Shown here piece by piece: positions 5,390 through 29,760 of a stretch of DNA of 42,876 nt. The position numbers were made by a program, and so were the translations under genes. The stretch's first letter is position 1; every line of letters starts with the position of its first letter. Source of the stretch: Bacteroidales bacterium (GTDB lineage Bacteria > Bacteroidota > Bacteroidia > Bacteroidales > UBA932); NCBI GenBank assembly GCA_017458145.1, contig JAFTGA010000057.1, positions 1 through 42,876 of the forward strand. Reading direction: 5' to 3'. Under the pieces are notes generated by a model. That model made no database searches. It was not told the origin of the DNA and worked only from the letters and a program-made list of their open reading frames with translations.

Positions 5390-5414
5390 ATTCTGAAAAC
5401 AAGACTGGCGAATA

Positions 5415-5422
5415 CAAATATA
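5415..5422 (-). promoter_or_regulatory. Predicted -7 box of the HTCS gene
   Basis: The minus strand reads TATATTTG, a full match to TAnnTTTG, 25 bp before the HTCS start codon. No TTTG is found at the expected -33 position, which is common for activated promoters. The TGAACAT box at 5472-5478 is 49 bp away, so the HTCS may control its own gene. Confidence 0.5.
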
Positions 5423-5470
5423 ACCAGTTTTTAACATTCTGCATACCGGTCTGTCGCTTGGGTTGAAGGC

Positions 5471-5482
5471 TTGAACATCCGG
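5471..5482 (+). promoter_or_regulatory. Candidate HTCS operator TTGAACATCCGG
   Basis: This TGAACAT box lies in the divergent region between the HTCS gene and susC. It is exactly 50 bp upstream of the susC -7 box and 49 bp from the HTCS -7 box. Similar boxes sit at the same distance in the other promoters of the locus (14214, 14266 and 19325). Binding by the AraC-type domain of the HTCS is inference. Confidence 0.5.
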
Positions 5483-5528
5483 TAAAATATCCGCCCGATT
5501 CAGCGGAGCACATATATATAAAGCTGCC

Positions 5529-5536
5529 TAAATTTG
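5529..5536 (+). promoter_or_regulatory. Predicted -7 box of the susCD operon
   Basis: TAAATTTG matches TAnnTTTG and would place the transcript start near 5543, giving a leader of about 45 nt. No TTTG is seen at -33, which fits a promoter that needs the activator. Confidence 0.55.
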
Positions 5537-5587
5537 CAGCAGGACACTAAAATTGTTTTTACCACAAATATTCAACCTCATTAATCA

Positions 5588-8500
5588 ATGATTGAGATGA
5601 ACAAAACTCAACTTTTCAAACGCCTTGCGGCGCTGGCTGTCGGGTTCTTCCTCAGCCTCCCGCTGCTGTTGGCGCAGAACCGGGTTGTCAAGGGAACCGT
5701 CCTTGACGACACGGACCAGGGCGTCATCGGCGCCGCCGTCATGATCAAAGGCACGACCAACGGTGTCGCCACCGATGTCGACGGCAAATTCGAAATCAGC
5801 TGCGACCCCGCCGACGTGCTGGTCATCTCCAGCATCGGCTTCGACGATGTCGAAGTGGCTGTGGGGAACCGCACGGAACTGACCATCCGGCTTGAGATCT
5901 CCCAGGAACTGCTTGACGACGTGGTCGTCATCGGTTATGGTACGACCCGTGCCAAGAACTTCACCGGTTCGGTGGACGTCATCAAGATGAGCGACTCCCC
6001 TGTCGCCGACCTCGGCCTGAGCAACGCCGCCGACATGCTCCGCGGCCGCCTGTCCGGTGTCGACATGGGTGCCGAGTCCGCCACCGTCGGAAGCAACGCC
6101 AATATCATGGTGCGTGGCCGCAAGTCCATCAACTCGACCTCCTCCGCCCCGCTGCTCGTGGTCAACGGCGTCATCTTCACCGGCAACCTCGAGGACATCG
6201 ACCAGAACTCCATCGAGTCCATCAGCGTGCTCAAGGATGCCACCTCGCTGGCCGCCTATGGTTCCAAAGCCGCGAACGGCGTGATCATGATCACCCTCAA
6301 GAAGGGCGAAGAGGGCAAGCCCCTCATCACCTTCTCCACCTCCCACCAGTTCTCCACGCCGTCCTACCGCCAGCGTTTCCTCTCCCCGGAGAACTACATC
6401 AAGTACAGCAACGCCCGCCGCGGCATCGAGGACCTGACCAATACTTCCTGGATGTCCTTCCTCGAGAAGGCCAACTATGAGAAAGGCCGCACGACCGACT
6501 GGTACAATATGGTCACCCGCATGGGCTACACGCAGAACTACAACCTGAGCTTCTCCGGCCGCACCCAGAACTCCAACTACTATGTGGCGCTCGGGCACTC
6601 CGGACAGCGCGGTATCGTGGTCGGCAACGACTTCTCCCGCAACAACGTCTCGATGAACCTCTCCACCCATATCTTCAAGAACATCGAGATCGGTGCCAAC
6701 ATGGCCTACACCAACTCCGTGGACAACCACGTGGCCGCCAGTACCAACGTCAACCAGTCCCCGTACATGGAGCCGTACCTGCCGGACGGCAAGACCCTCC
6801 GCTACTATGTGGAAGGCGTCAACGCCTCCTCCGTCAACCCGCTGTGGGAGACCCAGGTCGGCCGCGAGAAGGACAACCGCCGCTTCAACCTCAACCTCGG
6901 CGGCTTCGTGAGCGTCAACATCCCCTGGGTGGAAGGCCTGAACCTCCGGATGAACGCTTCCTACACCAAGATGCAGTCCAACAACTACAGCTTCACCCAC
7001 GAGAACATCACCCCGGCCCTCCTCTCCAACGACTGGGAAGGCATCGGCCAGACCTCCGACTACTATAACCTGGCCAACGCCGAGGGAAGCATCAGCAATT
7101 CCGTCTCCGAGAACTGGGTCATGGACTTCATCCTCAGCTATGCCCGCCAGTTCGGCCGCCATTACGTCAGCGCCTCGCTCGTCTACACCCGCGACAGCGC
7201 CGAGTCCTCCTACTACTCCGAAGGCGGCAAGGGCTTCATGGCCGCCGGCAACACGCTGACCGGCTGGTACGGTCTCGGCAATGCCGACACCAAGACCGTC
7301 TCCAATCCTACCTACGTGCTCCACACCGACGTGGGCTACCTCGCGCGCGTGATCTATTCTTATCGCGACACCTACCACTTCAACGCCTCCTTCCGCCGGG
7401 ACGGCTCCTCCGTGTTCGGCAATGAGCGCAAATGGGGCAACTTCCCCGCCGTCGGCGCTGCCTGGACCATGTCCAACGAGCAGTTCATGAAGGACAACGT
7501 GCACTGGATCGACTTCCTCAAGCTGAAGCTCTCCTGGGGTAAGAACGGTGCCCAGACCATTTCTCCGTACGGCACCCTGTCCACGATCGCCGTGGCCAAG
7601 GGCGGCGGCATCCCCAACTACTATGGCGGTGAGACCCACTGGGGCCAGCGCCTCGCCACCCTCGGCAACCCGACCCTCGGCTGGCAGACCACCACGTCCT
7701 GGAACGGCGGTTTCGAGGCGGACTTCCTCCAGGGCCGCATCCACATCGATGTCAACGCCTACTTCTCCCAGACCACGGACCAGATCTTCGACCGCAACAT
7801 CCCGGTCATGACCGCCGGCATCACCACCCAGAAGGCGACGATGGGCCGCGTGGACAACAACGGCGTGGAGGTCAACCTCAACACCGTCAATATCAAGAAG
7901 AAGAACTTCGAATGGTCCTCCAACTGGGTATTCTCCCTCAACCGTAACCGGATCATCGACCTCTACGGTGACGGACAGGACGACCTCACCAAGAGCCTGT
8001 TCATCGGCCACCCGATCAACACGATCTACGGCTACAAGACCGAGGGCATCTTCCAGGACGGCCAGAACGCCGGCCGCCCGATCTTCTACACCCTGGACGG
8101 ACAGCAGACCGACAACCCTTCCCCTGAAGACCGTCAGATCCTCGGTTCCGGCGACGAGAACTTCCGTCTCTCCTGGGCCAACACCCTCCGCTGGGGCAAC
8201 TGGCAGGTTTACCTGATGTTCCAGGGCGTCTTCGGCGGCGCCGGCTTCGGCCTGGCGAACAACACCTTCGCCTACTCCACCTACGACATGACCGCTTCCT
8301 GTACCGCGCTTGACATCCCGTTCTGGACCAGGCAGGCCCCCAACAACACCTACCCGGCCCCGAACGTGAGCGAGAGCAAGTACGCCGTGTACAACTCCTA
8401 CGGCCACGTCCGCCTGCAGGACCTCTCCGTGTCCTACAACCTCAGCAAGCTGGTGAACAAGATCGGTCTCAAGGGCGCCCGCGTGACGCTCGCCGGCCGC

Positions 8501-8611
8501 AACCTATTCTTCATTGCTCCGGGCTGGAAGATGAGCGACCCGCAGTCCCGCTCCGCCTATGGCGTCGGCATCCCCCGCTCCGTCACCCTCGGCCTCAATG
8601 TCTCTTTCTGA
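5588..8611 (+). CDS. susC: SusC-like TonB-dependent outer membrane transporter
   Basis: The 1007-residue protein imports oligosaccharides across the outer membrane together with its SusD partner. It begins with a signal peptide (to about residue 30, LSLPLLLAQ). A carboxypeptidase-regulatory-like domain follows at about 33-110 (VVKGTVLDDTDQGVIGAAV), then a TonB-box-like stretch (DDVVVIGYGT) and a plug domain up to about 230. The 22-strand barrel ends in a typical aromatic C-terminus (LGLNVSF). A second in-frame ATG at 5597 (MNKTQLF) is an equally good start. susD follows after 27 bp, and an HTCS is divergent, which is the standard PUL core. Confidence 0.96.
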   Translation: MIEMNKTQLFKRLAALAVGFFLSLPLLLAQNRVVKGTVLDDTDQGVIGAAVMIKGTTNGVATDVDGKFEISCDPADVLVISSIGFDDVEVAVGNRTELTIRLEISQELLDDVVVIGYGTTRAKNFTGSVDVIKMSDSPVADLGLSNAADMLRGRLSGVDMGAESATVGSNANIMVRGRKSINSTSSAPLLVVNGVIFTGNLEDIDQNSIESISVLKDATSLAAYGSKAANGVIMITLKKGEEGKPLITFSTSHQFSTPSYRQRFLSPENYIKYSNARRGIEDLTNTSWMSFLEKANYEKGRTTDWYNMVTRMGYTQNYNLSFSGRTQNSNYYVALGHSGQRGIVVGNDFSRNNVSMNLSTHIFKNIEIGANMAYTNSVDNHVAASTNVNQSPYMEPYLPDGKTLRYYVEGVNASSVNPLWETQVGREKDNRRFNLNLGGFVSVNIPWVEGLNLRMNASYTKMQSNNYSFTHENITPALLSNDWEGIGQTSDYYNLANAEGSISNSVSENWVMDFILSYARQFGRHYVSASLVYTRDSAESSYYSEGGKGFMAAGNTLTGWYGLGNADTKTVSNPTYVLHTDVGYLARVIYSYRDTYHFNASFRRDGSSVFGNERKWGNFPAVGAAWTMSNEQFMKDNVHWIDFLKLKLSWGKNGAQTISPYGTLSTIAVAKGGGIPNYYGGETHWGQRLATLGNPTLGWQTTTSWNGGFEADFLQGRIHIDVNAYFSQTTDQIFDRNIPVMTAGITTQKATMGRVDNNGVEVNLNTVNIKKKNFEWSSNWVFSLNRNRIIDLYGDGQDDLTKSLFIGHPINTIYGYKTEGIFQDGQNAGRPIFYTLDGQQTDNPSPEDRQILGSGDENFRLSWANTLRWGNWQVYLMFQGVFGGAGFGLANNTFAYSTYDMTASCTALDIPFWTRQAPNNTYPAPNVSESKYAVYNSYGHVRLQDLSVSYNLSKLVNKIGLKGARVTLAGRNLFFIAPGWKMSDPQSRSAYGVGIPRSVTLGLNVSF

Positions 8612-8638
8612 TCCGCAACCTCTTAACTTGATATAGCC

Positions 8639-10510
8639 ATGAAACTGCATACATTCATTCCGGCCCTCGCATGCACCCTCCTTCTGGGTGGCGTCGCGAC
8701 CTCCTGCCTGTCCGACAAGGACTTCCTCACCGAGAAGCCGAAGGCCCAGCTGACCATCGCCAATGCCTACAACACTTCCGACCAGGTGGTCAACACCCTG
8801 CTGACCGGCTACTTTGAGTTCGAGGAGCTCTTCTTCCCGAACGCCATGGGCCAGGGCATCGCATACAACACTTCCACCGGCACGGATATGACCGACAACA
8901 AATACCAGCTCGGCATGGGTTCCCACATGAGCAACTTCACCGCCGCCTGGTCCGCCGATTCCGATCTCCCGAAGAGCCTCTGGGACAAGTTCTACAAGAT
9001 CATCTCCTACGCCAACCTGGCGCTCATCAAGATCGACGAGGTCGAATGGTCCTCCGAGGCCGAGAAGAGCCGCGTCGCCGCAGAAGCGAAATTCCTCCGC
9101 GGGCTGGCTTATCTGCGCCTGGGCGAACTCTTCGGCGGCGTGCCGATGGTGCTTGAGTACACCGAGACCCCGAACTACGCCTACGAACGCGCTTCCCGCT
9201 CCGAGACCTACGCCGCCGCGATCGACGACCTCAAGGCCGCCTACGCCGGGCTGCCCTGGGACGTGAAGGCCGAATACGGCCGCGCCGGCAAGGGTGCCGC
9301 GGGCATGTTCCTCGCCGAAGCCTACCTGGCCGACGGCGTGGAGAGCAACGACAACAAGACTTCCTACGATGAGGCCGCCAAGGTGGCCCGGGAAGTGATC
9401 GCCCACCACCCGCTGATGACCGGGCGTTTCGGTGTCCGCCTGCCCGACGCCGCCGGATCCAACTATGGCATCCCCAATGCCTACCCGGAAGGCAACGTGA
9501 TGTCCGACCTTTTCGTCGCCCAGAACATCATCAGCGCCGCCAATACGGAGGCCATCTGGGTGATGGTCAGCGCTCCCGACTACGCCACCTTCACCGCCAA
9601 CGGCGGCGAATTCTTCAACCCGACCCCGGGCGGACGCCGTTGCTGCACGCTGGGCTTCACCCCCGCCCTGCAGGACTACAACTGGGCGCCCGAGTACGCG
9701 GAAACCGGCGCGGCTGCCGGTCCCTGGAAGGCTTTCTCCGCCAAGTACGGCGGCGAGATGAGCCCCGCCACCCACGGCGGCACCGGCTGGGCCCAGAGCA
9801 CCCCGACCTGGTTCGCCTCCTACACGATGTGGGACGATGAGCACAACAACAACTCCCTGGGCAACGACCTCCGCTACATCGAGGACGTGACGGTCAAGAC
9901 CGAGTATATGTGCTGCGACGAGAACCACTCCCTCTATGAGCAGAAAGTCGGCTGGGACCAGATCGACCACTCCACCCCGGAACTCGCCGGCATCTTCTTC
10001 CCGATCTGGTACAAGGAGACTCCGTTCGACCTCTGGGACTATGATCCGGCGGATCCCGGCTTCTCCTGGTTCGGCAAGTACATCAACTTCTACCGTTCCA
10101 AGTATGCCGCCCGCACCTCTGAGGTGTACCTCCTGCTCGCCGAAGCCCTGCTGCGCGGCGGTGACAAGGCCGGCGCCCTCGACGCCCTCAACGCCGTCCG
10201 CGAGCGTGCCAACGCCAATCCGTTCGGCGACATCGACATCAACACCATCCTGGACGAGCGCGGCCGCGAACTGCTCTACGAAGAGTTCCGCTGGGCGACC
10301 TTCCTGCGGATGAAACCGGCCGAGTGGAAAGCCCGCATCAACGACTACAGCATGTACCACGCCAGGAGCGGTGCCGAGGTCTATCCGGCCATCCGCCGCT
10401 GGGCCGAGGATGCAGACGACATCAAGTTCGACCTCTTCCCCATTCCGCAGACCTACATCGACCTCAACACCGGTGCCAAATTGGAGCAGAACGCCGGCTG
10501 GACGAAGTAA
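8639..10510 (+). CDS. susD: SusD-like glycan-binding lipoprotein
   Basis: The 623-residue surface lipoprotein binds glycan and closes over the SusC barrel. Its N-terminus MKLHTFIPALACTLLLGG leads to a lipobox ending in Cys23 (VATSC). The N-terminal RagB/SusD helices show the usual EAKFLRGLAYLRLGELFGGV segment, and the C-terminal part has the family pattern SEVYLLLAEALLRGG followed by LNAVRERA and LDERGRELLYE. It is in one operon with susC and is followed by an esterase gene. The specificity cannot be read from the sequence. Confidence 0.95.
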   Translation: MKLHTFIPALACTLLLGGVATSCLSDKDFLTEKPKAQLTIANAYNTSDQVVNTLLTGYFEFEELFFPNAMGQGIAYNTSTGTDMTDNKYQLGMGSHMSNFTAAWSADSDLPKSLWDKFYKIISYANLALIKIDEVEWSSEAEKSRVAAEAKFLRGLAYLRLGELFGGVPMVLEYTETPNYAYERASRSETYAAAIDDLKAAYAGLPWDVKAEYGRAGKGAAGMFLAEAYLADGVESNDNKTSYDEAAKVAREVIAHHPLMTGRFGVRLPDAAGSNYGIPNAYPEGNVMSDLFVAQNIISAANTEAIWVMVSAPDYATFTANGGEFFNPTPGGRRCCTLGFTPALQDYNWAPEYAETGAAAGPWKAFSAKYGGEMSPATHGGTGWAQSTPTWFASYTMWDDEHNNNSLGNDLRYIEDVTVKTEYMCCDENHSLYEQKVGWDQIDHSTPELAGIFFPIWYKETPFDLWDYDPADPGFSWFGKYINFYRSKYAARTSEVYLLLAEALLRGGDKAGALDALNAVRERANANPFGDIDINTILDERGRELLYEEFRWATFLRMKPAEWKARINDYSMYHARSGAEVYPAIRRWAEDADDIKFDLFPIPQTYIDLNTGAKLEQNAGWTK

Positions 10511-10533
10511 CCATCTACTGAAACCTCTATCCC

Positions 10534-10563
10534 TGAGGCGGCGGATCGCAGTCCGCCGCCTCA
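10534..10563 (+). terminator. Strong hairpin between susD and the first esterase
   Basis: TGAGGCGGCGGA (10534-10545) pairs perfectly with TCCGCCGCCTCA (10552-10563) around a 6-nt loop, followed by TTTATTG. The U-tract is weak, so it may only attenuate read-through or protect the susCD mRNA rather than stop transcription before the esterase, 14 bp on. Confidence 0.6.
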
Positions 10564-10577
10564 TTTATTGTTCAAAT

Positions 10578-11735
10578 ATGAAAAAGATGTTCCCCTTTCT
10601 TCTGGCGGCCCTGATGACGTGCGCGCCGCTCCGTGCCCAGTACCCTGGCAGCCAATATCTTCCGCAGGTCGAAGGCAATTGCGTCACCTTCCGGCTGCAG
10701 GCGGACAAGGCGCAGGACGTGCAACTCTTCGGCGACTTCCTGCCCGGCGTCAACGAATACCGGCTGGGCGGACACGTCGCCATGGTCCGCAATGCCGACG
10801 GACTCTGGGAATATACGGCCCGCGGACTGGCTCCGGACTTCTATTACTACTATTTCGAGGTGGACGGCGTGCGGGTTCTGGATCCGCACAATCTCAAGCT
10901 GGTCTGCAACTATTCCGAGTTCTACAACTCCTTTCTGGTCCCGGGCGACGGGAGCCGCAACCTGGAGCAGACCGGCGTCCCGGCCGGGACGCTCGTCACG
11001 CACTGGTACGACTCACCGGAATATGGCGGACAGCGGCGCCTCAACGTCTGGCTGCCGGCGGACTACGACGCATCCGGCAGCTATCCCGTCCTGTATATGA
11101 TCCCGGGCGGCGGGGACGACGAGGACACCTGGACCGATATGGGACGCCTGCCCCAGATTCTCAGCCACATGACCGCCTCGGGCGAGGCCGTCCCGATGAT
11201 CGTGGTGCTCGTCAACGCAATGCCCAACCAATGGGCCGCTCCGCACGTGATGAATCCCATCCCGGGTGCCAGGAGCCACTTTGAGCTGATGGGCACGCCG
11301 CAGGGCGCCTCCGGCGGAGAATTCTGCAATGATCTGATACGCAATATCATTCCGTTCATCGAAGGGCATTACTCCGTGCGCAGGGACCGCGGCGGCAGGG
11401 CCGTATGCGGCGTCTCCATGGGCGGCGTGTACCAGATGTACCTGCTGGAGCGCCGGCCGGACTTGTTCGCCTACGTTGCCCTGATGGGCTCCGGCCTGAT
11501 GAATGCGGCTCCGGATGCGGCCGATGCTGCGCTGCGGCCGCTCAAGGAGGCCGGGTATTCGCTGATGTGGATCGGCGCAGGCAGCCAGGACATGGCGCTC
11601 CGCAGCGCCCGCAACCTGATGTCCGCCCTGGAACGCAGCCGCATGCCGTACACTTACTACGACTCCGCCGACGGCCACAACTGGCGCTCCTGGCGCCGCG
11701 ACCTGCAGCAGCTGCTGCCGCTGCTCTTCCGCTGA
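10578..11735 (+). CDS. CE1-like esterase with N-terminal Ig-like domain (PUL esterase 1)
   Basis: This 385-residue secreted alpha/beta-hydrolase has a signal peptide (MKKMFPFLLAALMTCAPLRAQ). An N-terminal early-set, CBM48-like domain covers about residues 30-120 (VTFRLQADKAQDVQLFGDF), and an esterase-D-type catalytic domain follows. The nucleophile is Ser280 in GVSMGG and the His is His367 in DGHNWRSWR. Proteins of this build in Bacteroidetes PULs are feruloyl or acetyl-xylan esterases. It is the third gene of the susCD operon, behind a hairpin. The ATG at 10578 starts the signal peptide; a longer frame from 10371 overlaps susD and is rejected. The acyl group removed is not known. Confidence 0.9.
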   Translation: MKKMFPFLLAALMTCAPLRAQYPGSQYLPQVEGNCVTFRLQADKAQDVQLFGDFLPGVNEYRLGGHVAMVRNADGLWEYTARGLAPDFYYYYFEVDGVRVLDPHNLKLVCNYSEFYNSFLVPGDGSRNLEQTGVPAGTLVTHWYDSPEYGGQRRLNVWLPADYDASGSYPVLYMIPGGGDDEDTWTDMGRLPQILSHMTASGEAVPMIVVLVNAMPNQWAAPHVMNPIPGARSHFELMGTPQGASGGEFCNDLIRNIIPFIEGHYSVRRDRGGRAVCGVSMGGVYQMYLLERRPDLFAYVALMGSGLMNAAPDAADAALRPLKEAGYSLMWIGAGSQDMALRSARNLMSALERSRMPYTYYDSADGHNWRSWRRDLQQLLPLLFR

Positions 11736-11778
11736 ACCGGCGCGGCCGGCAAGGTCCCGGCCCGAAGCGGACACAAAT

Positions 11779-11810
11779 GGATGGGTGCCCGGAGAAACGG
11801 GCACCCATCC
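11779..11810. terminator. Terminator hairpin between convergent genes
   Basis: GGATGGGTGCCCG (11779-11791) pairs perfectly with CGGGCACCCATCC (11798-11810) around a 6-nt loop, followed by TTGTATA. It lies between the convergent ends of the susCD-esterase operon and the GH3 gene and may serve both. Confidence 0.75.
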
Positions 11811-11858
11811 TTGTATACACCTATGACAAACGGGCCGTCGGAACGGCGCTGATTGCTT

Positions 11859-14123
11859 TTAGAAAGAGACTTCCGCCTTCTGGCGGATATCGTCGGAGGC
11901 AGCGCCGAGCAGGAGCTCCAGCCGGCCGTGCTCGAGATCCCAGGCGTTCTTGTCCACGTTCCAGTAGCGCAGGTCGTCGGAGGCGATTTCCAGCGTGACG
12001 GTCCGGGTCTCGCCGGGCTGCAGGCTCACGCGGGCGAAGGCCTTGAGTTCCTTTTCAGGCCACTCCACCTTGCTGTCCGGACGGCTGACATACAGCTGCA
12101 CGACCTCGTCGGCGGCCATCTGTCCGGCATTGGTCAGCGGGAAACTGACCTGAATGCCCTTCTTGCCGGCGGAAGCCCGGACAGCACCGTAGTTGAAGTC
12201 CACGTAGGACAGGCCGTGACCGAAGGCATACATCGGCTTGATGTCCTTGGTATCGAACCAGCGGTAGCCCACGAGAGACCCCTCGGTGTACTTGGACACT
12301 GGCTTGGGGAGCGCGTCGATGAAGGCCTGGCGCTCGGCGGGAGACATCTTGAGGACGTCCTCGCGGTACATCAGGGTGAAGAGGTCGCCGCCCTGCGTCT
12401 TGTCGGGGAAGTTGCCCAGCGCAAAGGCCGGGGAATCCTCCAGACGGGCCGGGAAGGTGAACGGAAGCTTGCCGGACGGGGCGATGTCGCCAAACAGGAC
12501 CTCGGCCAGGGCGGTGCCGCCCTCGGTGCCGTTCCACCAGCCCTGCAAGATGGCCGGGCTGACCGGCTCAAGCTCGCGCAGGTCGGTCGGACCGCCGGAA
12601 ATCAGCACGGTGACGAGTTTCGGATTGACGGCGGCCAGGGCCTTCACGATTTCATTCTGTCCGACAGGCAGGTCGATGTTGGCGCGGTCGCTGCCCTCGG
12701 TCTCGATGCTCTTGTTGGTGCCGCCGAAGAAGATCACGAGGTCGGCCTCACGGGCCAGGGCGACGGCCTCGGCGAGCAGCGCGGGATCGGCCGGCTCATC
12801 GATGGCAGCCGCCTCCAGCGGATCGGCCTTGGCCGGGGCGGGCCCCCAGCGGCGGCCCGGGAAATTCTTGTAGCCGGGCGCATAGAGCACCTCGGCGGCG
12901 TCTCCGGCGCGCCGGCGGATACCCTCGAGCGGCGTGACCTCATAGAGGGCCTTGACACCGGCGCCCATGCCGCCGGACTGGGTCTTGAGGACGGCGTTCT
13001 GGCCGATGACGGCTATCTTCTTCACCTCGCGGGAGAGCGGCAGCAGTCCGCCCTCGTTCTTGAGCAGCACGATGGACTTCTCCGCCACCGCCTTGGCAAT
13101 CTCCTGGCACTCAGGCTGGGAAGTCATCTTCGTGTTGGCCACGTTGTCGGGCACGGCCTCGACGGCATAGCGCACGCGCAGGATCTGGCGGACTTTCTCG
13201 TTGACCAGTTCCTCGGTCAGGGCACCGGTCCTGACGGAATCGATCACCGGCTGGCCCAGGTAGTTGCTGCCCGTCATCTGGACATTCAGGCCGTGCAGCA
13301 TGGCGCCCATCGTGCTGTGGGTGCCGCCCCAGTCGGAGACGGTGAAGCCCTTGAAGCCCCACTCGCCACGGAGAATCTCGTTCAGCAGGTGCTCGTTCTC
13401 GGAGCAATAGTCCCCGTTGACCTTATTATAAGCCGGCATCACGCTCATCGCGCCGCCTTCGCGGATTGCCCGCTCGAACGGCTTGAGATAGATCTCGCGA
13501 AGGGTGCGCTCATCCAGCTGGGCGTCGACACTGCCGCGGTTGGTCTCCTGGTTGTTGACGGCGAAGTGCTTGATGCACACGGCCGTCCCCTGGTCCTGGA
13601 CACCTTTTGTATAATAAAGGGCAAGGGCCGCGCTGAGGATCGGATCCTCGCTCAGGTACTCATAGGTGCGGCCGCCGACAGGCAGGCGCTGGATATTGAC
13701 GGCCGGGCCGAGGATCACGTCCTTGCCGCGCAGGCGGGCTTCGATGCCCATCCCCTTGCCGTACTGGTAGGCCAGATCCTCGGACCAGGTGGCGGCGAGG
13801 GCCGAGCCGGTCGGGAAATAGGTGGCGGAGTCGAGCTGCCAGCCCGCGGACTGGAATCCGTTCGGGACGCCTTCCTCGCGTATGCCGAACGGGCCGTCCG
13901 CATAGTGGATGTCGGCAATGCCGAGGCGCTCCACGCCCGCGGAAGACATGTTGGTCTTGCTGTGAAGCATCTCGACCTTCTCCTCGAGGGTCATCTGCGC
14001 GATGACGGCATCGATCTTGGCATCGTTCGCCGCCAGGCGGTCCTGCGGCGTGACCGGCTGCGCGCACGCGGCAAGCAGCGCAGCGGCGCCGGCCAGGGAA
14101 AGAATGGTTTTGATTCTGTACAT
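11859..14123 (-). CDS. GH3 family beta-glycosidase lipoprotein
   Basis: This 754-residue exo-glycosidase removes terminal beta-linked sugars, most often glucose or xylose in this family. A lipobox (LLAACAQ, Cys20) puts it in the periplasm or on a membrane surface. The GH3 N-terminal barrel has the nucleophile Asp264 in VSDWGG and the substrate-binding KHFAVNNQE. The alpha/beta C-terminal domain and a fibronectin-III-like domain with DLRYWN near the C-terminus follow. Length and order match BglX-type enzymes (about 765 residues). The ATG at 14121-14123 begins the signal peptide. It is the only glycoside hydrolase of the locus and is divergent from a carboxylesterase. Whether it is a glucosidase or xylosidase cannot be told. 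Confidence 0.94.
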   Translation of the reverse strand: MYRIKTILSLAGAAALLAACAQPVTPQDRLAANDAKIDAVIAQMTLEEKVEMLHSKTNMSSAGVERLGIADIHYADGPFGIREEGVPNGFQSAGWQLDSATYFPTGSALAATWSEDLAYQYGKGMGIEARLRGKDVILGPAVNIQRLPVGGRTYEYLSEDPILSAALALYYTKGVQDQGTAVCIKHFAVNNQETNRGSVDAQLDERTLREIYLKPFERAIREGGAMSVMPAYNKVNGDYCSENEHLLNEILRGEWGFKGFTVSDWGGTHSTMGAMLHGLNVQMTGSNYLGQPVIDSVRTGALTEELVNEKVRQILRVRYAVEAVPDNVANTKMTSQPECQEIAKAVAEKSIVLLKNEGGLLPLSREVKKIAVIGQNAVLKTQSGGMGAGVKALYEVTPLEGIRRRAGDAAEVLYAPGYKNFPGRRWGPAPAKADPLEAAAIDEPADPALLAEAVALAREADLVIFFGGTNKSIETEGSDRANIDLPVGQNEIVKALAAVNPKLVTVLISGGPTDLRELEPVSPAILQGWWNGTEGGTALAEVLFGDIAPSGKLPFTFPARLEDSPAFALGNFPDKTQGGDLFTLMYREDVLKMSPAERQAFIDALPKPVSKYTEGSLVGYRWFDTKDIKPMYAFGHGLSYVDFNYGAVRASAGKKGIQVSFPLTNAGQMAADEVVQLYVSRPDSKVEWPEKELKAFARVSLQPGETRTVTLEIASDDLRYWNVDKNAWDLEHGRLELLLGAASDDIRQKAEVSF

Positions 14124-14155
14124 AATGAATATAGCGTTATCTTGAATTTTCAACC

Positions 14156-14163
14156 TAAAGTTA
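14156..14163 (-). promoter_or_regulatory. Predicted -7 box of the GH3 gene
   Basis: The minus strand reads TAACTTTA, seven of eight positions of TAnnTTTG, about 33 bp before the start codon. The TGAACAT box at 14214-14220 is exactly 50 bp upstream, but points the other way from the boxes of susC and the plus-strand carboxylesterase. Confidence 0.35.
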
Positions 14164-14193
14164 GTCAGATTCCGCCAAAATACCGCCATGCCG

Positions 14194-14295
14194 CTGACAT
14201 TCGGGAAGGTTTTTGAACATCGGGCATAATATTCCTGCACAGGACGGCGGCGGCGCCGGCCGGCCTGAACATCGGGACAAAGGATTGAACACCGC
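14194..14295. promoter_or_regulatory. Two pairs of TGAACAT-type half-sites in a divergent promoter
   Basis: Four related boxes lie between the GH3 and carboxylesterase genes: CTGACATTCGGG at 14194, TTGAACATCGGG at 14213, CTGAACATCGGG at 14265 and TTGAACACCGC at 14285. Within each pair the spacing is 19-20 bp, about two helical turns, as expected for an AraC-type dimer on direct repeats. The 14213 box is 50 bp from the GH3 -7 box and the 14265 box is 50 bp from the carboxylesterase -7 box. The binding protein is inferred to be the HTCS. Confidence 0.5.
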
Positions 14296-14322
14296 AACGA
14301 GCACTTTGCAGCAGAGAATTCC

Positions 14323-14330
14323 TATCTTTG
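14323..14330 (+). promoter_or_regulatory. Predicted -7 box of the carboxylesterase operon
   Basis: TATCTTTG is a full match to TAnnTTTG, 24 bp before the start codon. There is no TTTG at the proper -33 distance. The TGAACAT box at 14266-14272 ends exactly 50 bp upstream. Confidence 0.55.
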
Positions 14331-14353
14331 TTTTCAGACAAATTCTGTTGAAT

Positions 14354-15718
14354 ATGACCAGACCCTCCACCCTTCTGCTGTCCGCCGCGGCCCTGCTGCT
14401 CGCGGCGTGCGCGCCCAAGAACCCCGTCCTGACCGTTTCCGGCGGCCGGATCCAGGGCGTGCTGACCGATTCCTCCTCCGTAATGGTTTATAAGGGCATC
14501 CCGTATGCCGCCCCGCCCGTGGGCGCGCTGCGCTGGCAGGCCCCGCAGCCCGTGCCCGCCTGGGAGGGCGTACGCGTGTGCGACAAGTTCAGCGCCATTT
14601 CCCTGCAGTCCGGCAACGCCCCCGGCACCTTCTACGGCGACGAATTCTACTGGATGGGCGACCCGGAGCAGAACGAAGACTGTCTCTACCTCAACGTCTG
14701 GGCTCCGGCCGGCACGGTCGGCAAGCCGGACGCCAAACTGCCCGTCGCGATGTGGATTCACGGCGGTGCCTATATGAACGGCTACGGCCACGAAGTCACG
14801 ATGGACGGCGACGCCTGGGCGCGCCGCGGCGTGATCCTCGTCACGATCAACTACCGCCTCGGCACGCTCGGTTTCCTCTCCCACCCCGAGCTCACCGCCG
14901 AGCAGGGCCAGTCCGGCAACTACGGCACGATGGACCAGATCGCCGCCCTGCAGTGGGTACACGACAACATCGCGGCCTTCGGCGGCGACCCCGCCAACAT
15001 CACCGTCTTCGGCCAGAGCGCCGGTGCGATGAGCGTCAAGACGCTGCTTATCTCTCCCCTCTCCCGCGGCCTGCTGGCCAAGGCCATCATCCAGAGCGGC
15101 GGCGGCATCGGACTCCGGAGTCTCGCCCCGGCGGACAACGTCCCGCAGTCCTTCTATGACGCGCAGGGCAAGGACATCATGGACAATGCCGGGCTGACGG
15201 ACCTCCAGGCCATGCGGGCCGCCCCGGCGGAAGACATTTTCGCCGCCTCCGGCAAGTACATGCAGGCGGACAAGGGCTTCGTGATGCTCTCGCCGCACAA
15301 CGACGGCAAGGTCCTCACCGAAGACTTCGACCACGCCCTCTACGACCGTTCGATGGCGCAGGTGCCCGTGATGATCGGCTACAACAAGGACGACATGGGC
15401 ATCCTGGCCGGTGCGGGCGTGGACCGTTTCTGCGCCGTGCGCGATTCGCTCGGCTGTCCGGTCTGGGAATACGAATTCCTGCGCGAGCTCCCGACCGACG
15501 ACGCCCATCCGGCTTCCAGGGCCGGCGCCTTCCACTCCGCCGAGCTCTGGTATACCTTCGGCACGCTCGGCAGGAGCTGGCGTCCCTTCATCCCGGCCGA
15601 CTACGCCCTGTCGGAGCGGATGGTGGACGCCTGGACGGCCTTCTGCCGCAGCGGCGACCCCGGCTGGCCCGCCTACAAGCACGACAAGCCCTACAAGGAA
15701 AACTTTGATATCCAATAA
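14354..15718 (+). CDS. Type-B carboxylesterase lipoprotein (CE10-like, PUL esterase 2)
   Basis: This 454-residue alpha/beta-hydrolase has a lipoprotein signal (LLLAACAP, Cys19). It shows the family marks YKGIPYAAPPVGALRWQ, EDCLYLNVWAP, the oxyanion stretch WIHGGAY and the nucleophile Ser222 in FGQSAGAMS. The catalytic His is His394 in GAFHSAELWYTFG. At the place of the usual catalytic Glu (DEG in p-nitrobenzyl esterases) the protein has NKDDMG, so an Asp (346 or 347) may serve as the acid. At 454 residues it is shorter than the usual 500-550. It likely removes acyl groups from small PUL products. The next esterase gene follows after 6 bp in the same operon. Confidence 0.9.
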   Translation: MTRPSTLLLSAAALLLAACAPKNPVLTVSGGRIQGVLTDSSSVMVYKGIPYAAPPVGALRWQAPQPVPAWEGVRVCDKFSAISLQSGNAPGTFYGDEFYWMGDPEQNEDCLYLNVWAPAGTVGKPDAKLPVAMWIHGGAYMNGYGHEVTMDGDAWARRGVILVTINYRLGTLGFLSHPELTAEQGQSGNYGTMDQIAALQWVHDNIAAFGGDPANITVFGQSAGAMSVKTLLISPLSRGLLAKAIIQSGGGIGLRSLAPADNVPQSFYDAQGKDIMDNAGLTDLQAMRAAPAEDIFAASGKYMQADKGFVMLSPHNDGKVLTEDFDHALYDRSMAQVPVMIGYNKDDMGILAGAGVDRFCAVRDSLGCPVWEYEFLRELPTDDAHPASRAGAFHSAELWYTFGTLGRSWRPFIPADYALSERMVDAWTAFCRSGDPGWPAYKHDKPYKENFDIQ

Positions 15719-15724
15719 GCAAAC

Positions 15725-16810
15725 ATGAAACGCATTCTGCTGCTCGCAGCCCTTTTCTGCTGCACCCTGCCGCTGTCCGCCCAGTGGCAGCGCCGGGCCA
15801 CCCCGGCCGACACCCTCCACTCCACCGTCGTGCTCCCCGACGGCGACGTCATCTTCCAGATCTACGCGCCCAAGGCGCGGACCGTCTCCGTGGCGGGCGA
15901 CCTGCCCTGGGGGCAGCCCGTCGTCTTCCGCGAAAGCCCGGACGGCGTCTGGAAAGGACGCTGCAAAGGCCTGGGAGACGGCGTGTTCCGCTACCATTTC
16001 ATCGTGGACGGCATCTCCGTCCAGGACCCCGCGAGCCCGCAGGCCGGAGAGACGTCCGCCCTGCTGACGGTCGGCGAAGGCTATGTCAGGGACGTGCCGC
16101 ACGGCGCCCTCGCCCAGCGCTGGTACGCTTCCAATACCCTCGGCGGCATGCGCCGGATGCACGTCTGGACCCCCGCCGGCTATGAAAACGGCAAGCAGAA
16201 ACTTCCGGTCCTGTACCTCATCCACGGCGGCGGCGACAACGACGCCTCCTGGCCGACGGTCGGGGCTGCCGGCTGGATCCTCGACGAACTGCTGGCCGAA
16301 GGCAAAATCGTCCCGATGATCGTCGTGATGCCCAACGGAACCGTCACCGGCGTCCCCAATGAGGTCCCGCCCTTCGCCGAAGACATGATGACGGACATCA
16401 TTCCTTTCATTGAAAGCAACTACCGCGTGATCGCCAAGCCTGAGAGCCGCGCCGTGGCAGGCCTGTCCATGGGCGGAATGGAGACGATGGAGGTCATCTT
16501 CAGGAATCCCGACTTCTTCCGCTACGCCTGGGTCCTCTCCTCCAGCTTCCAGCCCGGCCAGGACCCTGCCGCCGAAGCCGCCCGCCTGCACGTGGCCGAC
16601 AACGTCGCCCGTATCAACAAGACCTACAAGGCTTTCGTCTTCACCCAGGGCGGTCCTTCCGACATCGCCTACCAGAACTGCGTCAACACCCGCAAGGCCC
16701 TGGAAGGCCTCGGGCTCCGTTTCGACTATATGGAGAACGCCCAGGCCGGCCACAGCTGGGCCACCTGGCGCGCCGACCTCCGGGCCCTCGCCCCCACCCT
16801 CTTCCGCTAG
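15725..16810 (+). CDS. CE1-like esterase with N-terminal Ig-like domain (PUL esterase 3)
   Basis: This 361-residue secreted esterase has a signal peptide (MKRILLLAALFCCTLPLSAQ) and an early-set domain at about 35-105 (VIFQIYAPKARTVSVAGDL). The catalytic domain carries YLIHGGGDNDASW, Ser248 in GLSMGG and His343 in AGHSWATWR. It is of the same class as the esterases at 10578, 16881 and 18021 but clearly diverged from them, so the set is not a recent tandem duplication. It follows the carboxylesterase in one operon and is closed by a strong terminator. Feruloyl or acetyl esterase activity is likely from the family; the substrate is inference. Confidence 0.9.
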   Translation: MKRILLLAALFCCTLPLSAQWQRRATPADTLHSTVVLPDGDVIFQIYAPKARTVSVAGDLPWGQPVVFRESPDGVWKGRCKGLGDGVFRYHFIVDGISVQDPASPQAGETSALLTVGEGYVRDVPHGALAQRWYASNTLGGMRRMHVWTPAGYENGKQKLPVLYLIHGGGDNDASWPTVGAAGWILDELLAEGKIVPMIVVMPNGTVTGVPNEVPPFAEDMMTDIIPFIESNYRVIAKPESRAVAGLSMGGMETMEVIFRNPDFFRYAWVLSSSFQPGQDPAAEAARLHVADNVARINKTYKAFVFTQGGPSDIAYQNCVNTRKALEGLGLRFDYMENAQAGHSWATWRADLRALAPTLFR

Positions 16811-16830
16811 CGGGAGTGCAGCCAAATTCA

Positions 16831-16866
16831 AAAGAGGCCTGCGGACGGATCCGCAGGCCTCTTTTT
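16831..16866. terminator. Intrinsic terminator, usable from both sides
   Basis: AAAGAGGCCTGCGGA (16831-16845) and TCCGCAGGCCTCTTT (16850-16864) form a 15-bp perfect stem with a 4-nt loop, flanked by A-rich and T-rich ends. It ends the carboxylesterase operon and probably also the convergent esterase pair. Confidence 0.88.
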
Positions 16867-16880
16867 GGTATCATCAGGTC

Positions 16881-18014
16881 TTACCTGAATAGCTTCGGTG
16901 CGAAGGTGTTCAGATACAGTCTCCAGTTGGACCAGGTGTGTCCGCCGTCCGAGACGAAGTAGATATGGTCCAGTCCCTGCTCGGTGAGCGTCTTGTCCAG
17001 CTGCTGGGAGCCCTGGAACAGGAAGTCCGCATCGCCGCAGGCGAGGAAATACAGCTTCACGCCGGCCTTCTTGAGCGCAGCGATCTGCTCCGAGCTGGCC
17101 TGGCCGGCAGCGGAGAGCGGGCAGATATAATCGAACATCTGCGGATAGAGGATGGAGGCGCTGATCGTATGGCCGCCGCCCATCGACAGGCCGGCGATGG
17201 CGCGGGCCTCCGGCTTGGCGTTCACGCGGAAATTCTTCTCGACGAAAGGCACGATCTCCTCGCACAGGCTCTTGACATAGATGTTCTGGAAGGCGGGATC
17301 GCGCCAGTTCATCTGCTTCTCGGCAATGCCCAGCGTGCGGGCGGCCTGCTGACCGGGATTGCCGTTCGGCATCACCACGATCATCGGCTCGGCGAGCCCC
17401 TTCTCGATCAGGTTGTCCAGGATCTGGGCGGCACGGCCCATCGAGGTCCAGGCCTCCTCGTCACCGCCTGCGCCGTGCAGGAGGTACAACACCGGATACT
17501 TCTTCTTGGGATTGGCTTCGTAGCCGTACGGGGTATAGACGGTCAGGCGGCGGCTGAAGCCGAGCAGCTTGCTGTCGTACCAGGGATGGCTCACGGTGCC
17601 GTGGTGCTTTGCCTCGCCGTAGTTCTCGGTACGCTCGCCGGGGACGAGCAGCATCGGCAGGTAGCGGGTGCCGTCGCGCTGCACATACACGTTCTGCGGA
17701 TCATTGACGGCCACGCCGTCCACCACGAAATTGTAGGTGTAGATCTCCGGGGACGGGAGGGCGATCTTGACGGACCAGACATTGTTCTCGCCGCGGGTCA
17801 TGTCGATGGTGCCGCCATAGGGATTCGGCATCCAGGAACCGCTGAGCTTGACGACGGTGGCGTAGTCGGCCTTGAGGCGGAACGTCACGCTGTCTCCCTG
17901 GATCTCCGGGGAGATGACGGGTGCCTGGCGGCCGAAAGAGAAATTGTTGAGTTCCTGTGCCATGGCAGTGAGGGAAAGCGCAGCCGCAGCTGCGAGAATC
18001 AATAACTTTTTCAT
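16881..18014 (-). CDS. CE1-like esterase with N-terminal Ig-like domain (PUL esterase 4)
   Basis: This 377-residue secreted enzyme has a signal peptide (MKKLLILAAAAALSLTAMAQ). An early-set domain lies at about 40-115 (VTFRLKADYATVVKLSGSW), followed by an esterase-D-like domain with YLLHGAGGDEEAW, Ser277 in GLSMGG and His359 in DGGHTWSNWR. The order and length match Bacteroidetes feruloyl/acetyl-xylan esterases. It starts 6 bp after the stop of the esterase at 18021 and is the second gene of a two-gene minus-strand operon. Confidence 0.91.
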   Translation of the reverse strand: MKKLLILAAAAALSLTAMAQELNNFSFGRQAPVISPEIQGDSVTFRLKADYATVVKLSGSWMPNPYGGTIDMTRGENNVWSVKIALPSPEIYTYNFVVDGVAVNDPQNVYVQRDGTRYLPMLLVPGERTENYGEAKHHGTVSHPWYDSKLLGFSRRLTVYTPYGYEANPKKKYPVLYLLHGAGGDEEAWTSMGRAAQILDNLIEKGLAEPMIVVMPNGNPGQQAARTLGIAEKQMNWRDPAFQNIYVKSLCEEIVPFVEKNFRVNAKPEARAIAGLSMGGGHTISASILYPQMFDYICPLSAAGQASSEQIAALKKAGVKLYFLACGDADFLFQGSQQLDKTLTEQGLDHIYFVSDGGHTWSNWRLYLNTFAPKLFR

Positions 18015-18020
18015 CTTTGT

Positions 18021-19241
18021 TTATTTGAATAATAACGGTACGAATTCACTCAGATAGATCCGCCAGTTCCGCCAGATGTGGCCGCCGTCGGTCTCCATAT
18101 AGGTGTAGGGATAGCCGGCCGCGTCAAGCTTGGACCGGAAATCATTGTTGGACTGGATCAGGAAATCGCTGCTGCCGATGCCGATCCACAGCAGGGCGGG
18201 TTTCTTGGCGAAATAGGCCGCCAGTTTGCCGTCGATGTCCTCATAGATCTCCTTGTGGGCTGCGGTCTGTTCGGAGCCCGTGCCGATGGCGGCGGAGAAC
18301 ATTCCGGAATAATTGAACAGGTCCGGATTGTTCAGCGTGATGTACAGGGTATGGAAGCCGCCCATCGACAGGCCGCAGATGGCACGGGACTGCTTCCGGG
18401 CAAGGGTGCGGTAGTGGCTGTCGATGAACTTCACGACTTCCGGGAAAGAGGTCTCGAATGTCCCCTCCATCGTCTGCGGCAGGGACATCGTCGGGCGGTC
18501 ATATCCCGTGGAGTTTTCCAGCGGGGCCGCCTCCTGGGAGATGTTGCCGTTGGTGAACACGACGATCATCGGCCGGGCCTGCCCGCGGGCGATCAGGTTG
18601 TCGAGGATCTGCGTGGCACGCCCCTGCGTGACCCAGGCATCCTCATCGCCGCCGATGCCGTGCAGGACGTACAGGACGGGATATTTCTCCCTGGAAGACT
18701 CATACCCGGCGGGCGTATAGACCGTCAGGCGGCGGTCAAAGCCGGCCGTGGCGCTGGGATACCAGACCTTTGACACGGATCCGTGCGGGACGCGGTGGAT
18801 GGCATAGAGGTCGCTGCGTGCCCCCTCCTGCGGGACCAGCAGCACGCTGGTCAGCGAGGCGATATCCCGGTTCACGAAGACATTGGCCGGATCGATGGTC
18901 TGCAGTCCGTCCACGGAAAAAGTATAGGTATACATCTCGGGAGCGACCGCGAAGGGGGTGGTATATTCCCACACGCCGTCCGCGCCCTCCTTGAGCTCGC
19001 CCACGCCCGGAGCGTCGTAGGACATCTTCCGGCCGTTCATCTCGAACTCCATATGCTGCACGGGCATGAAATCACCGGACACGGTGACGCGCACGGCCTT
19101 GGGGGCGCGGTAGCGGAAGGTCACGGTGCCGTCCGCATTGATGACGGGAGACTCGACCTGCGAGCCGCCGAACAGGGCCTGCTGGGCAAAGGCGGAAGCG
19201 CCCATGAGCAGGGCGGCCGCGAAAATAAGCATTTTCTTCAT
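18021..19241 (-). CDS. CE1-like esterase with N-terminal Ig-like domain (PUL esterase 5)
   Basis: This 406-residue secreted esterase heads a two-gene operon. It has a signal peptide (MKKMLIFAAALLMGASAFAQ) and an early-set domain at about 40-130 (VTFRYRAPKAVRVTVSGDF). The catalytic domain carries YVLHGIGGDEDAW, Ser292 in GLSMGG and His388 in DGGHIWRNWR. It is most like its downstream neighbour in the catalytic core. A TTG three codons upstream is possible, but the ATG at 19239-19241 gives the usual signal peptide start. A TGAACAT box upstream ties it to the HTCS regulon (inference). Confidence 0.91.
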   Translation of the reverse strand: MKKMLIFAAALLMGASAFAQQALFGGSQVESPVINADGTVTFRYRAPKAVRVTVSGDFMPVQHMEFEMNGRKMSYDAPGVGELKEGADGVWEYTTPFAVAPEMYTYTFSVDGLQTIDPANVFVNRDIASLTSVLLVPQEGARSDLYAIHRVPHGSVSKVWYPSATAGFDRRLTVYTPAGYESSREKYPVLYVLHGIGGDEDAWVTQGRATQILDNLIARGQARPMIVVFTNGNISQEAAPLENSTGYDRPTMSLPQTMEGTFETSFPEVVKFIDSHYRTLARKQSRAICGLSMGGFHTLYITLNNPDLFNYSGMFSAAIGTGSEQTAAHKEIYEDIDGKLAAYFAKKPALLWIGIGSSDFLIQSNNDFRSKLDAAGYPYTYMETDGGHIWRNWRIYLSEFVPLLFK

Positions 19242-19266
19242 ATCTGACAAAAGATCTTGTTTGATG

Positions 19267-19274
19267 CAAATATA
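19267..19274 (-). promoter_or_regulatory. Predicted -7 box of the esterase 4/5 operon
   Basis: The minus strand reads TATATTTG, a full match to TAnnTTTG, 25 bp before the start codon. The -33 TTTG is missing. Confidence 0.55.
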
Positions 19275-19320
19275 TCCATTATCCGACAGGAAGACTATGC
19301 AGAATCTGCAATTCGTATAA

Positions 19321-19332
19321 CTGAATGTTCAG
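19321..19332 (-). promoter_or_regulatory. Candidate HTCS operator CTGAACATTCAG
   Basis: On the minus strand this box reads CTGAACATTCAG and is nearly palindromic. Its TGAACAT core (19325-19331) lies exactly 50 bp upstream of the -7 box of the esterase operon, as at susC and at the carboxylesterase. It is also close to the promoter of the divergent EF-hand protein gene. Confidence 0.48.
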
Positions 19333-19363: not shown

Positions 19364-20410
19364 ATGAAAACCTTCCGCATCATCTTCCTGGCAGCCGCCC
19401 TGCTGTGTGCCGGTGCGCTGCGCGCGCAGAATTTCAACCCGTCCGGCACTACCGCCGCAGACCTCCTGAACAAGCCGGCATCGGAAGAGGCCGTCACGGC
19501 CGAAGGCGACATCAACAAAGACGGCATCCAGGACCTGGTCATCGCCGCCCGCGGACAGAACGGCGGGGACAACGTCGCCTTCTATCTTGGAGACGGGCAG
19601 GGCGGTTACCGGATCTTCCGGAGCTACGATATCTTCTTCTCCGGAGAGAAGACCGGCATCACCATCAATGACAAGGGTGTCGTCCGGTTCCAGAACGACC
19701 TCCCCCAGGGCGATGCCGACATCTTTCTGTTCCGCTACGAAAAGGACGACCTGAAACTGATCGGCGGCAAGGAAGACCGGCACCAGACAGGGCACTACGA
19801 TATCTCCTACAACTATCTCACGGGCAAGATGATCCGTACCGATGGTGAAGGCAAGGCCCGCAAGAGCACCACCCTGCAGATGCCGGACCAGCCGCAGATC
19901 CGTTTCGGCTGGATTCCCCTGTGCTATGATATGCTGAAATACCTCGTCCTGGAAGACGAAAACGGCGACGGCCAGCTGTCCCCGGAGGACATGAAGGTGA
20001 TGGGCATCTTCCGCTCCATGCAGGCAGGCGACATGCTCTTCTGGCATTTCTGCGACTACCAGAACCCTTACCACGACCCCCGCGGCAAGAACGGCTCCTG
20101 GCATGCCGACGACGAGCACTTGAGCCCGGGCAGCTACAATATGTTCTCAAGCCTGAATATCACCCTGCGGGAAGACGGATCCTACCTGCTGGAAGAGAGC
20201 ACGCAGTATGAGGACCGGAGTTACGAGCAGCAGTTCAACGAAGACCTGTCCAACATGGACGAGGTCATGGAGAAAGCCGACATCAGGGAATCGACCACCA
20301 AGACCGTCTGGACCTTCAAGGACGGCCGCTTTACCCTGATTTCTTCCGAAAGCAAAGAATTAGTCAACGGGGAGGAGGTCAAGGAAGAAGCTACAGCTTC
20401 CGGAGAATGA
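19364..20410 (+). CDS. Secreted protein with two EF-hand-like calcium loops, function unknown
   Basis: I do not recognise this 348-residue protein as a family. It has a signal peptide (MKTFRIIFLAAALLCAGALRAQ), so it acts outside the cytoplasm. A VCBS/FG-GAP-like stretch near residues 45-65 contains the calcium-loop pattern DINKDGIQDLVI, and a second loop (DENGDGQLSPED) lies near residues 200-212. The C-terminal third is acidic. It diverges from the esterase 4/5 operon and shares its 120-bp promoter region, which hints at a PUL role such as substrate or surface binding, but this is weak. Its last 20 bp overlap the end of the convergent glucosaminidase gene. The ATG at 19364 is chosen for the signal peptide. 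Confidence 0.8.
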   Translation: MKTFRIIFLAAALLCAGALRAQNFNPSGTTAADLLNKPASEEAVTAEGDINKDGIQDLVIAARGQNGGDNVAFYLGDGQGGYRIFRSYDIFFSGEKTGITINDKGVVRFQNDLPQGDADIFLFRYEKDDLKLIGGKEDRHQTGHYDISYNYLTGKMIRTDGEGKARKSTTLQMPDQPQIRFGWIPLCYDMLKYLVLEDENGDGQLSPEDMKVMGIFRSMQAGDMLFWHFCDYQNPYHDPRGKNGSWHADDEHLSPGSYNMFSSLNITLREDGSYLLEESTQYEDRSYEQQFNEDLSNMDEVMEKADIRESTTKTVWTFKDGRFTLISSESKELVNGEEVKEEATASGE

Positions 20411-29748: not shown

Positions 29749-29760
29749 GCTCAAAAACAG

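Follow-up and report, generated by a model that had tools for sequence, protein, structure and literature searches.

The 42,876-nt stretch of contig JAFTGA010000057.1 analyzed here (the window) belongs to a Bacteroidales assembly of 2.18 Mb that is 80.5% complete (coded G000). It carries a polysaccharide utilization locus (PUL) in which the gene of a hybrid two-component system (HTCS) regulator is transcribed away from susC-like and susD-like genes and an esterase gene, followed by a GH3 glycoside hydrolase gene and two further esterase operons (table 1). The regulator has the Pfam domains Reg_prop, Y_Y_Y, HisKA, HATPase_c, Response_reg, and HTH_18, running from a periplasmic propeller sensor to an AraC-type DNA-binding domain, and thus combines in one protein the sensor, histidine kinase, receiver, and AraC domain that define an HTCS. 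The word TGAACAT occurs at 5472-5478 (+), 14266-14272 (+), and 19325-19331 (-), where an earlier note on this DNA had placed it, and each copy lies exactly 50 bp upstream of a TAnnTTTG box, the -7 box of Bacteroidetes primary-sigma promoters (as cited in PMC7366714), in front of susC, the carboxylesterase gene, and the gene here called esterase4. These TGAACAT boxes are very probably the promoter-distal halves of predicted binding sites for the adjacent HTCS.

Two more promoters face the boxes in reverse. The box at 5472 is 49 bp from the -7 box of the HTCS gene, and a box at 14214 is 50 bp (counted by eye) from TAACTTTA, a 7/8 match to the -7 box before the window GH3 gene. The five promoters (susC, carboxylesterase, esterase4, HTCS, and GH3) have the -7 box of a primary-sigma promoter and, as the earlier note also stated, none has a good -33 TTTG. 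The only TTTG lies 14 bp upstream of the -7 box at carboxylesterase and 12 bp upstream at GH3, with none within 45 bp upstream at susC, esterase4, and HTCS.

What is unusual is the spacing, not the abundance of the word. Taken alone, TGAACAT is not overrepresented in the window (six found vs. a mean of 3.35 expected; 9 of 100 shuffles reach six). Within the upstream regions of 16 TAnnTTTG boxes of the window, promoters in an array of clustered regularly interspaced short palindromic repeats (CRISPR) excluded, TGAACAT at gap 50 is the sole combination of 7-mer and gap seen three times, and in 0 of 2000 shuffles did any 7-mer occur three times at a single gap between 15 and 100. Across the whole assembly, TGAACAT occurs 35-65 bp before TAnnTTTG in four places, every one at gap 50 (one match for a reversed-pattern control), and allowing one mismatch at gap 50 gives seven matches (control, 0). 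All four exact matches precede esterase, susC, or GH3 operon genes, three in the window and one unlinked to it. The earlier note had named as a refuting result the same box and spacing at many unrelated promoters of the genome, and no such set was found. In 120 other genomes of the genus, 22 matches fall at gap 50 and 4, 8, 13, 9, 7, and 8 at gaps 47, 48, 49, 51, 52, and 53, respectively; some of the 75 tabulated rows are mutually orthologous or coding-like, which makes these counts supporting evidence only. The lack of enrichment counts in favor of a chance meeting of a 7-mer with promoter boxes, picked out by reading many combinations. This is scarcely credible given shuffles that allow for all 7-mers and gaps, four of four genomic matches at one of 31 possible gaps, and conserved placement of the box in orthologues. 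Coincidence is strongly disfavored because the unlinked operon, which encodes two GH3 enzymes, keeps the box in several species.

Each TGAACAT box forms the upstream half of a direct repeat with a period of 20-21 bp; the repeat is weak at susC and clear at the other three promoters. HTCS sites are described as direct repeats with a mean distance of 21 bp (PMC3878776), and the predicted site, with two half-sites ∼21 bp apart, conforms to that description. The repeat matches itself at 9 of 12 positions at a distance of 20 bp before carboxylesterase and at 8 of 12 at 21 bp before esterase4; that before the unlinked GH3-GH3 operon spans 20 bp. The pattern TGAACA-N13..15-TGAACA occurs in two places in the whole genome, at 14266 before carboxylesterase and before the unlinked operon (control, 0). 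The earlier note was right about the location but had only half of the site, and it missed the direct repeat, a stronger site at 5431, and a conserved target outside the window.

Nine HTCS-susC intergenic regions, including that of the window, were aligned on their first suitable -7 box. Eight, the window included, share a gap-free array of four half-sites, with L107 deviating in site I. The array begins with TTAACATTCTGCATA, continues 21 bp on with TGNCGNTTNGGTTG and a further 20 bp on with TGAACATNCGG, and after ∼21 bp ends in a weaker fourth half, ∼22 bp from the -7 box. The distance from the box to the susC -7 box is 50 bp in nine of nine loci, and L104 and L108 keep a degenerate form of TGAACAT at that place. 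Mean majority-base share is 0.86, 0.80, 0.81, and 0.61 in half-sites 1-4. For comparison, two spacers have shares of 0.47 and 0.56, the 5 bp that follow half-site 3 have 0.76, and the 22-bp stretch leading up to the -7 box has 0.48. When scored with a matrix built from susC promoters of other genomes only, the strongest site of the window is that at 5431 (39.6), ahead of 5472 in second place (22.7) and 19331 in fourth (17.1). The site before the unlinked GH3-GH3 operon scores 17.6, the top of its 20 kb.

Presence of the box follows presence of the regulator. Of 10 genomes that have an HTCS orthologue (38-74% identical), 6 show the word TKAACATNC in the 50-bp register, as against 0 of 12 genomes in which the best HTCS is at most 35% identical or none is present. 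Five of the six matches lie in the HTCS locus; that of G141 precedes the orthologue of the GH3 operon. A scan of 22 loci, with up to one mismatch, found 15 pairs at gap 50 and 0-3 at each other gap from 30 to 70. Among related HTCS loci (L098-L108), 8 of 11 have the word at 49-51 bp with at most one mismatch. A 105-bp pattern describing the array matches in 7 of 400 genomes, the source genome included (control, 0), and its match in G303 revealed a further orthologous locus, between susC (79%) and HTCS (61%) genes. Locus L122, from a scan of genome contigs, is approximately the locus already counted in G088 and was not added as a new row.

The earlier note had proposed a likely HTCS regulon of all esterase operons and the regulator itself. 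The proposal is supported for the three esterase operons (susC-susD-esterase, carboxylesterase-esterase, and esterase4-esterase3), based on co-occurrence with the HTCS orthologue and the genomic matches, and may or may not extend to the reversed promoters. Among the nine aligned loci, five have 49 bp between the box and the HTCS -7 box, three have 48 bp, and L107 has 59 bp; this distance is nearly, not equally, fixed and may simply follow from the susC array. The start of site I is separated from the HTCS -7 box by 7-8 bp in eight loci (8 bp in the window) and by 18 bp in L107; in the eight it would sit on the HTCS promoter. HTCS genes of Bacteroides thetaiotaomicron are reported to have typically low constitutive expression without induction along with their PUL (PMC6874557), which weighs against self-regulation; the register signal described below, strongest in long HTCS-like genes, weighs against that statement in turn.

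For the window GH3 gene, the link rests on the 7/8 box and the reversed site at 14214, and that site may serve another regulator. Its counterpart in L098 keeps the 50-bp distance (by eye) and reads ATGTT-TTTG-AACAT, close to the palindrome predicted for the global regulator Cur (wwwTATGTTnTAnAACATAwww; PMC3878776). The Cur motif contains AACAT, and 14214 itself has 4 of 14 mismatches to the Cur palindrome TATGTTnTAnAACATA, which 14 of 2000 random places equal or better. These similarities raise the question of whether all boxes are sites of a global activator such as the CRP-like Cur/BT4338 rather than of the HTCS. We consider this highly improbable. The boxes of site I, site II, carboxylesterase, and esterase4 have 6-9 of 14 mismatches to the palindrome, near background, and a global site would be limited neither to four promoters nor to genomes with this HTCS. 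A forward box belonging to the GH3 gene itself is present in L105 (49 bp) and L106 (50 bp, counted by eye).

The unlinked GH3-GH3 operon is a likely member of the regulon in several species. The fourth assembly match lies before it on another contig (C50:25359-25423; ATG at L005:10458), and a second TGAACA follows the first by 20 bp. Near-full-length GH3 orthologues with 77-84% identity occur in 9 of 12 related genomes, and in five of these nine the operon has the box at 49-51 bp (G089, 49; G082, 50; G201, 49 with one mismatch; G141, 50; G159, 51). In all, 19 of 44 rows of GH3-operon copies were examined. The same operon has a second, tandem promoter-like stretch (G000:C50:25165-25229; L005:10166-10230) with two copies of TGAAGAT at a spacing of 20 bp and a gap of 50 bp to TACATTTG; it resembles a site for another HTCS. 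At G000:C42:18482-18546(-), upstream of a gene whose start is signal-peptide-like, a further TGAAGAT precedes TATCTTTG by 50 bp and is followed at 20 bp by TGAAGCC. A paralogous HTCS on contig 30 was considered as the owner of the TGAAGAT variant and rejected, as a filtered scan of its 15-kb stretch contained no such promoter.

Several observations weigh against the boxes being HTCS sites. In this genome, the second half of susC site II matches the first poorly (5 of 12 positions at lag 21), the carboxylesterase box falls outside the top 14 matrix scores, and maxima of 30 shuffles range from 8.1 to 19.0, of which two (18.2 and 19.0) exceed the esterase4 score of 17.1. A site at 14152(-) in the GH3 leader ranks third by matrix; it was rejected as probably due to chance, being downstream of the GH3 -7 box and unseen in L098. 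The word, at one mismatch, is absent from L103, L104, and L108 (the degenerate words of the latter two notwithstanding) and from eight of eight more distant HTCS loci (L109-L116). The box is also missing in four of nine close GH3-operon orthologues (G215, G091, G172, and G088; at least 77% identical) and in 10 other GH3 copies, which are more distant or duplicate and mostly at most 67% identical.

From the computed sites, repeat, spacing, conservation, and co-occurrence, we infer binding, activation, and the sugar sensed as follows. The site is a direct repeat with a 20-21-bp period, its first half approximately TKAACATNCKGCATA and its second a looser TGNCGNTTNGG. It starts 57 bp and ends ∼22 bp upstream of TAnnTTTG, which would place the downstream subunit over the missing -33 region. 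The periplasmic sensor would bind an oligosaccharide, probably from feruloylated or acetylated xylan because of the esterases and GH3 enzymes. Phosphorylation of the receiver would allow the AraC domains to bind the repeat, and the subunit beside RNA polymerase would recruit the polymerase in lieu of a -33 contact in a class-II-like manner, with the polymerase contact fixing the spacing. The placement of the repeat matches the geometry of an AraC-type activator that replaces the -33 contact, as in class II activation. At susC, the second pair of half-sites (site I) starts 41 bp further up and may adjust expression of the regulator. The regulon would also include the unlinked GH3-GH3 operon.

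The opposite arrangement, in which the HTCS is a repressor that leaves the boxes when sugar is sensed, has been proposed for the esterase-rich PUL of Bacteroides intestinalis. The published model draws the HTCS of that similar PUL as a repressor (PMC7815789, Fig. 10 legend), a further point against activation, and the start of site I, 8 bp upstream of the -7 box of the HTCS gene, also counts in favor of repression. On the other hand, rigid spacing, a site that ends ∼22 bp before the -7 box, and the lack of a -33 element form the pattern of an activator, the HTCS BT0366 is reported as an activator (PMC5061871), and DNA binding of an unphosphorylated HTCS is reported to be inhibited (PMC11253607). 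Repression is, on balance, unlikely.

If contact with RNA polymerase sets the spacing, other HTCSs with other motifs are expected to share the register. This was examined with a motif-free statistic that matches every 12-mer upstream of a -7 box to the one 10-35 bp farther along. In exploratory maps, 22 susC-like promoters near other HTCSs peaked at lag 21, ∼54-61 bp upstream (0 of 200 shuffles), and 143 promoters near other HTCSs, mapped without shuffles, peaked at the same place; another exploratory map covered 45 kin promoters, also without shuffles. The statistic was then fixed (lag 21, offsets 54-60) before it was applied to 80 further HTCS loci, drawn from 37 genomes of the order. These were chosen from ∼160 rows, mostly frames of at least 1,250 aa with room on the contig; 80 of 80 hold an HTCS and 78 gave promoters. 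Across all 358 promoters of these loci, the statistic was 0.303 vs. 0.269 in shuffles (0 of 100 shuffles), and the map as a whole peaked at offset 58, lag 21. Control promoters (n = 127) from HTCS-free stretches of the same genomes gave 0.274, as did their own shuffles (105 of 200). The controls represent 18 of 20 stretches, after removal of L370 (an HTCS) and L369 (an HTCS-like kinase); the 135 promoters before removal gave the same answer. The difference between HTCS loci and controls was reached by 348 of 20000 label permutations.

The signal has further features. Lag 21 alone stands out (0.303 vs. 0.251-0.283 at other lags; bootstrap by locus, 0.288-0.319) and codon periodicity is therefore no explanation. 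Promoters at 12-60 nt from a start codon show the signal most strongly (0.33, n = 162; vs. 0.269 in 60 control promoters), those at 60-120 nt do not show it (0.27, n = 80), and it reaches 0.327 in 71 non-susC open reading frames (ORFs) of at least 1,200 aa, by length mostly HTCS genes. Against a shared register, susC-like promoters, the class tested first, gave 0.307 (n = 15; 47 of 300 shuffles) and susC promoters defined by hidden Markov model gave 0.288 (n = 32; 13 of 200 shuffles), neither significant; the significant set of 358 is a wider class, tested with the statistic unchanged. The map of the 32 order-level susC-like promoters peaks at lag 30, offsets 73-77, a height reached in 12 of 200 shuffles. 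We regard as fairly likely a rule in which HTCS-activated promoters of Bacteroidales, whatever the motif, carry a 21-bp direct repeat starting 55-60 bp upstream of the -7 box, with the second subunit replacing the -33 contact. Titles listed in searches of the open-access literature included none on the register of HTCS sites to the -7 box; in that literature, TAnnTTTG appears together with 'hybrid two-component' in one paper, a transcriptome map.

Table 1. Genes, promoter elements, and predicted half-sites of the PUL, in window coordinates.
Feature	Position	Strand	Basis or remark
HTCS regulator gene	1574..5389	-	Pfam; alignment with 9 orthologues
HTCS -7 box TATATTTG	5415..5422	-	Kept in 8 other aligned loci, L102 at 7/8 letters
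Site I half-site 1 TTAACATTCTGCATA	5431..5445	+	Best score of window, matrix from other genomes
Site I half-site 2 TGTCGCTTGGGTTG	5452..5465	+	21 bp after half-site 1
Site II half-site 1 (box of the earlier note)	5472..5486	+	50-bp gap to susC -7 box
Site II half-site 2	5493..5507	+	Weak in this genome, least conserved of four
susC -7 box TAAATTTG	5529..5536	+	
susC-like transporter gene	5588..8611	+	Pfam, NCBIfam TIGR04056; start ATG 5588 or 5597
susD-like gene	8639..10510	+	Pfam
Esterase A, PF00756	10578..11735	+	Pfam
GH3 glycoside hydrolase gene	11859..14123	-	Pfam
GH3 -7 box TAACTTTA, 7/8	14156..14163	-	L098 counterpart TATCTTTA
Possible half-site CTGACATTCGGGAAG	14194..14208	+	By eye; 20 bp before 14214 half-site
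Half-site TGAACATCGGGCATA	14214..14228	+	Reversed, 50 bp from GH3 -7 box; or part of Cur-like palindrome
Carboxylesterase half-site 1	14266..14280	+	50-bp gap to -7 box
Carboxylesterase half-site 2 TGAACACCGCAACGA	14286..14300	+	20 bp after half-site 1
Carboxylesterase -7 box TATCTTTG	14323..14330	+	
Carboxylesterase, PF00135	14354..15718	+	Pfam
Esterase, PF00756	15725..16810	+	Pfam
Esterase3, PF00756, second in operon	16881..18014	-	Pfam, NCBIfam
Esterase4, PF00756, first in operon ("esterase 5" in the earlier note)	18021..19241	-	Pfam, NCBIfam
Esterase4 -7 box TATATTTG	19267..19274	-	
Esterase4 half-site 2 TGCAGATTCTGCATA	19296..19310	-	21 bp after half-site 1
Esterase4 half-site 1 TGAACATTCAGTTAT	19317..19331	-	50-bp gap to -7 box

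The HTCS protein probably starts at residue 17 of ORF 1574-5437, because the -7 box falls inside the longer ORF. Its receiver motif is CHIP, in keeping with the S/CHIP motif conserved in HTCS receivers (PMC11253607), and two of nine aligned orthologues (L104 and L105) have CHLP. The alignment leaves out the copies in G083 and G091:C38; the HTCS orthologues in G083:C49 and G091:C38 have one in-frame TGA apiece. Matches to 'YceG' in relatives were rejected as a shadow of the HTCS gene within ORF 501-2393. Esterase A appears, by position, to share an operon with susC-susD, and a suspected frameshift in it was rejected, the gene being open in frame 10569. The NCBIfam model nearest to the esterase at 15725-16810 is the feruloyl-esterase part of a xylanase/feruloyl esterase, with a score below the cut-off. 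The gene at 19364-20410, divergent from esterase4, has no Pfam or NCBIfam match at 1e-5 and no listed tblastn match in the loci of relatives. At its start (1-475), the window has a CRISPR-like array with a period of 76-78 bp and at least six copies. Six copies of the repeat carry the -7-like TATCTTTG on the minus strand, and each repeat could be a promoter. An integrated element with short TTTACAC-type repeats occupies 29760-39781 and encodes a tyrosine integrase (31096-32211), BT4734-like and DUF3987 primase-like proteins (33862-36608), and a BsuBI/PstI-type restriction-modification pair (37272-39781).

The predicted regulon resembles known HTCS systems in part. Bacteroides HTCS regulons (Ravcheev et al. 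2013; PMC3878776) share with it a direct repeat of two half-sites, spaced by 21 bp on average and found before susC and enzyme operons, and likewise have some targets unlinked to the PUL; the fixed distance to the -7 box and the array of four half-sites set the present locus apart, as far as the portion of that paper available to us goes. Like the EGE PUL of B. intestinalis (PMC7815789), the locus has an HTCS, susC/susD, several esterases, and GH3; unlike it, no GH43 occurs among the 30 window ORFs scanned. That study models repression and describes the sequence targeted by its HTCS as 'yet to be determined'. In the arabinan system of BT0366, a fragment of the HTCS binds the susC-side promoter and the intergenic region neighboring the HTCS gene in electrophoretic mobility shift assays, and BT0366 differs in sensor, sugar, and motif (PMC5061871).

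HTCSs decide glycan use in many Bacteroidales, but few of them have a known DNA target; the 2013 reconstruction, with 16 predicted HTCS motifs, gave none for 20 HTCSs of B. thetaiotaomicron (PMC3878776). For one HTCS, the analysis supplies a candidate sequence, a list of targets, and a geometry, and it favors activation over repression. It also offers a positional, motif-free rule applicable to every HTCS. If the register rule is true, HTCS sites could be found in a single genome, without a motif, from self-repeats at that place.

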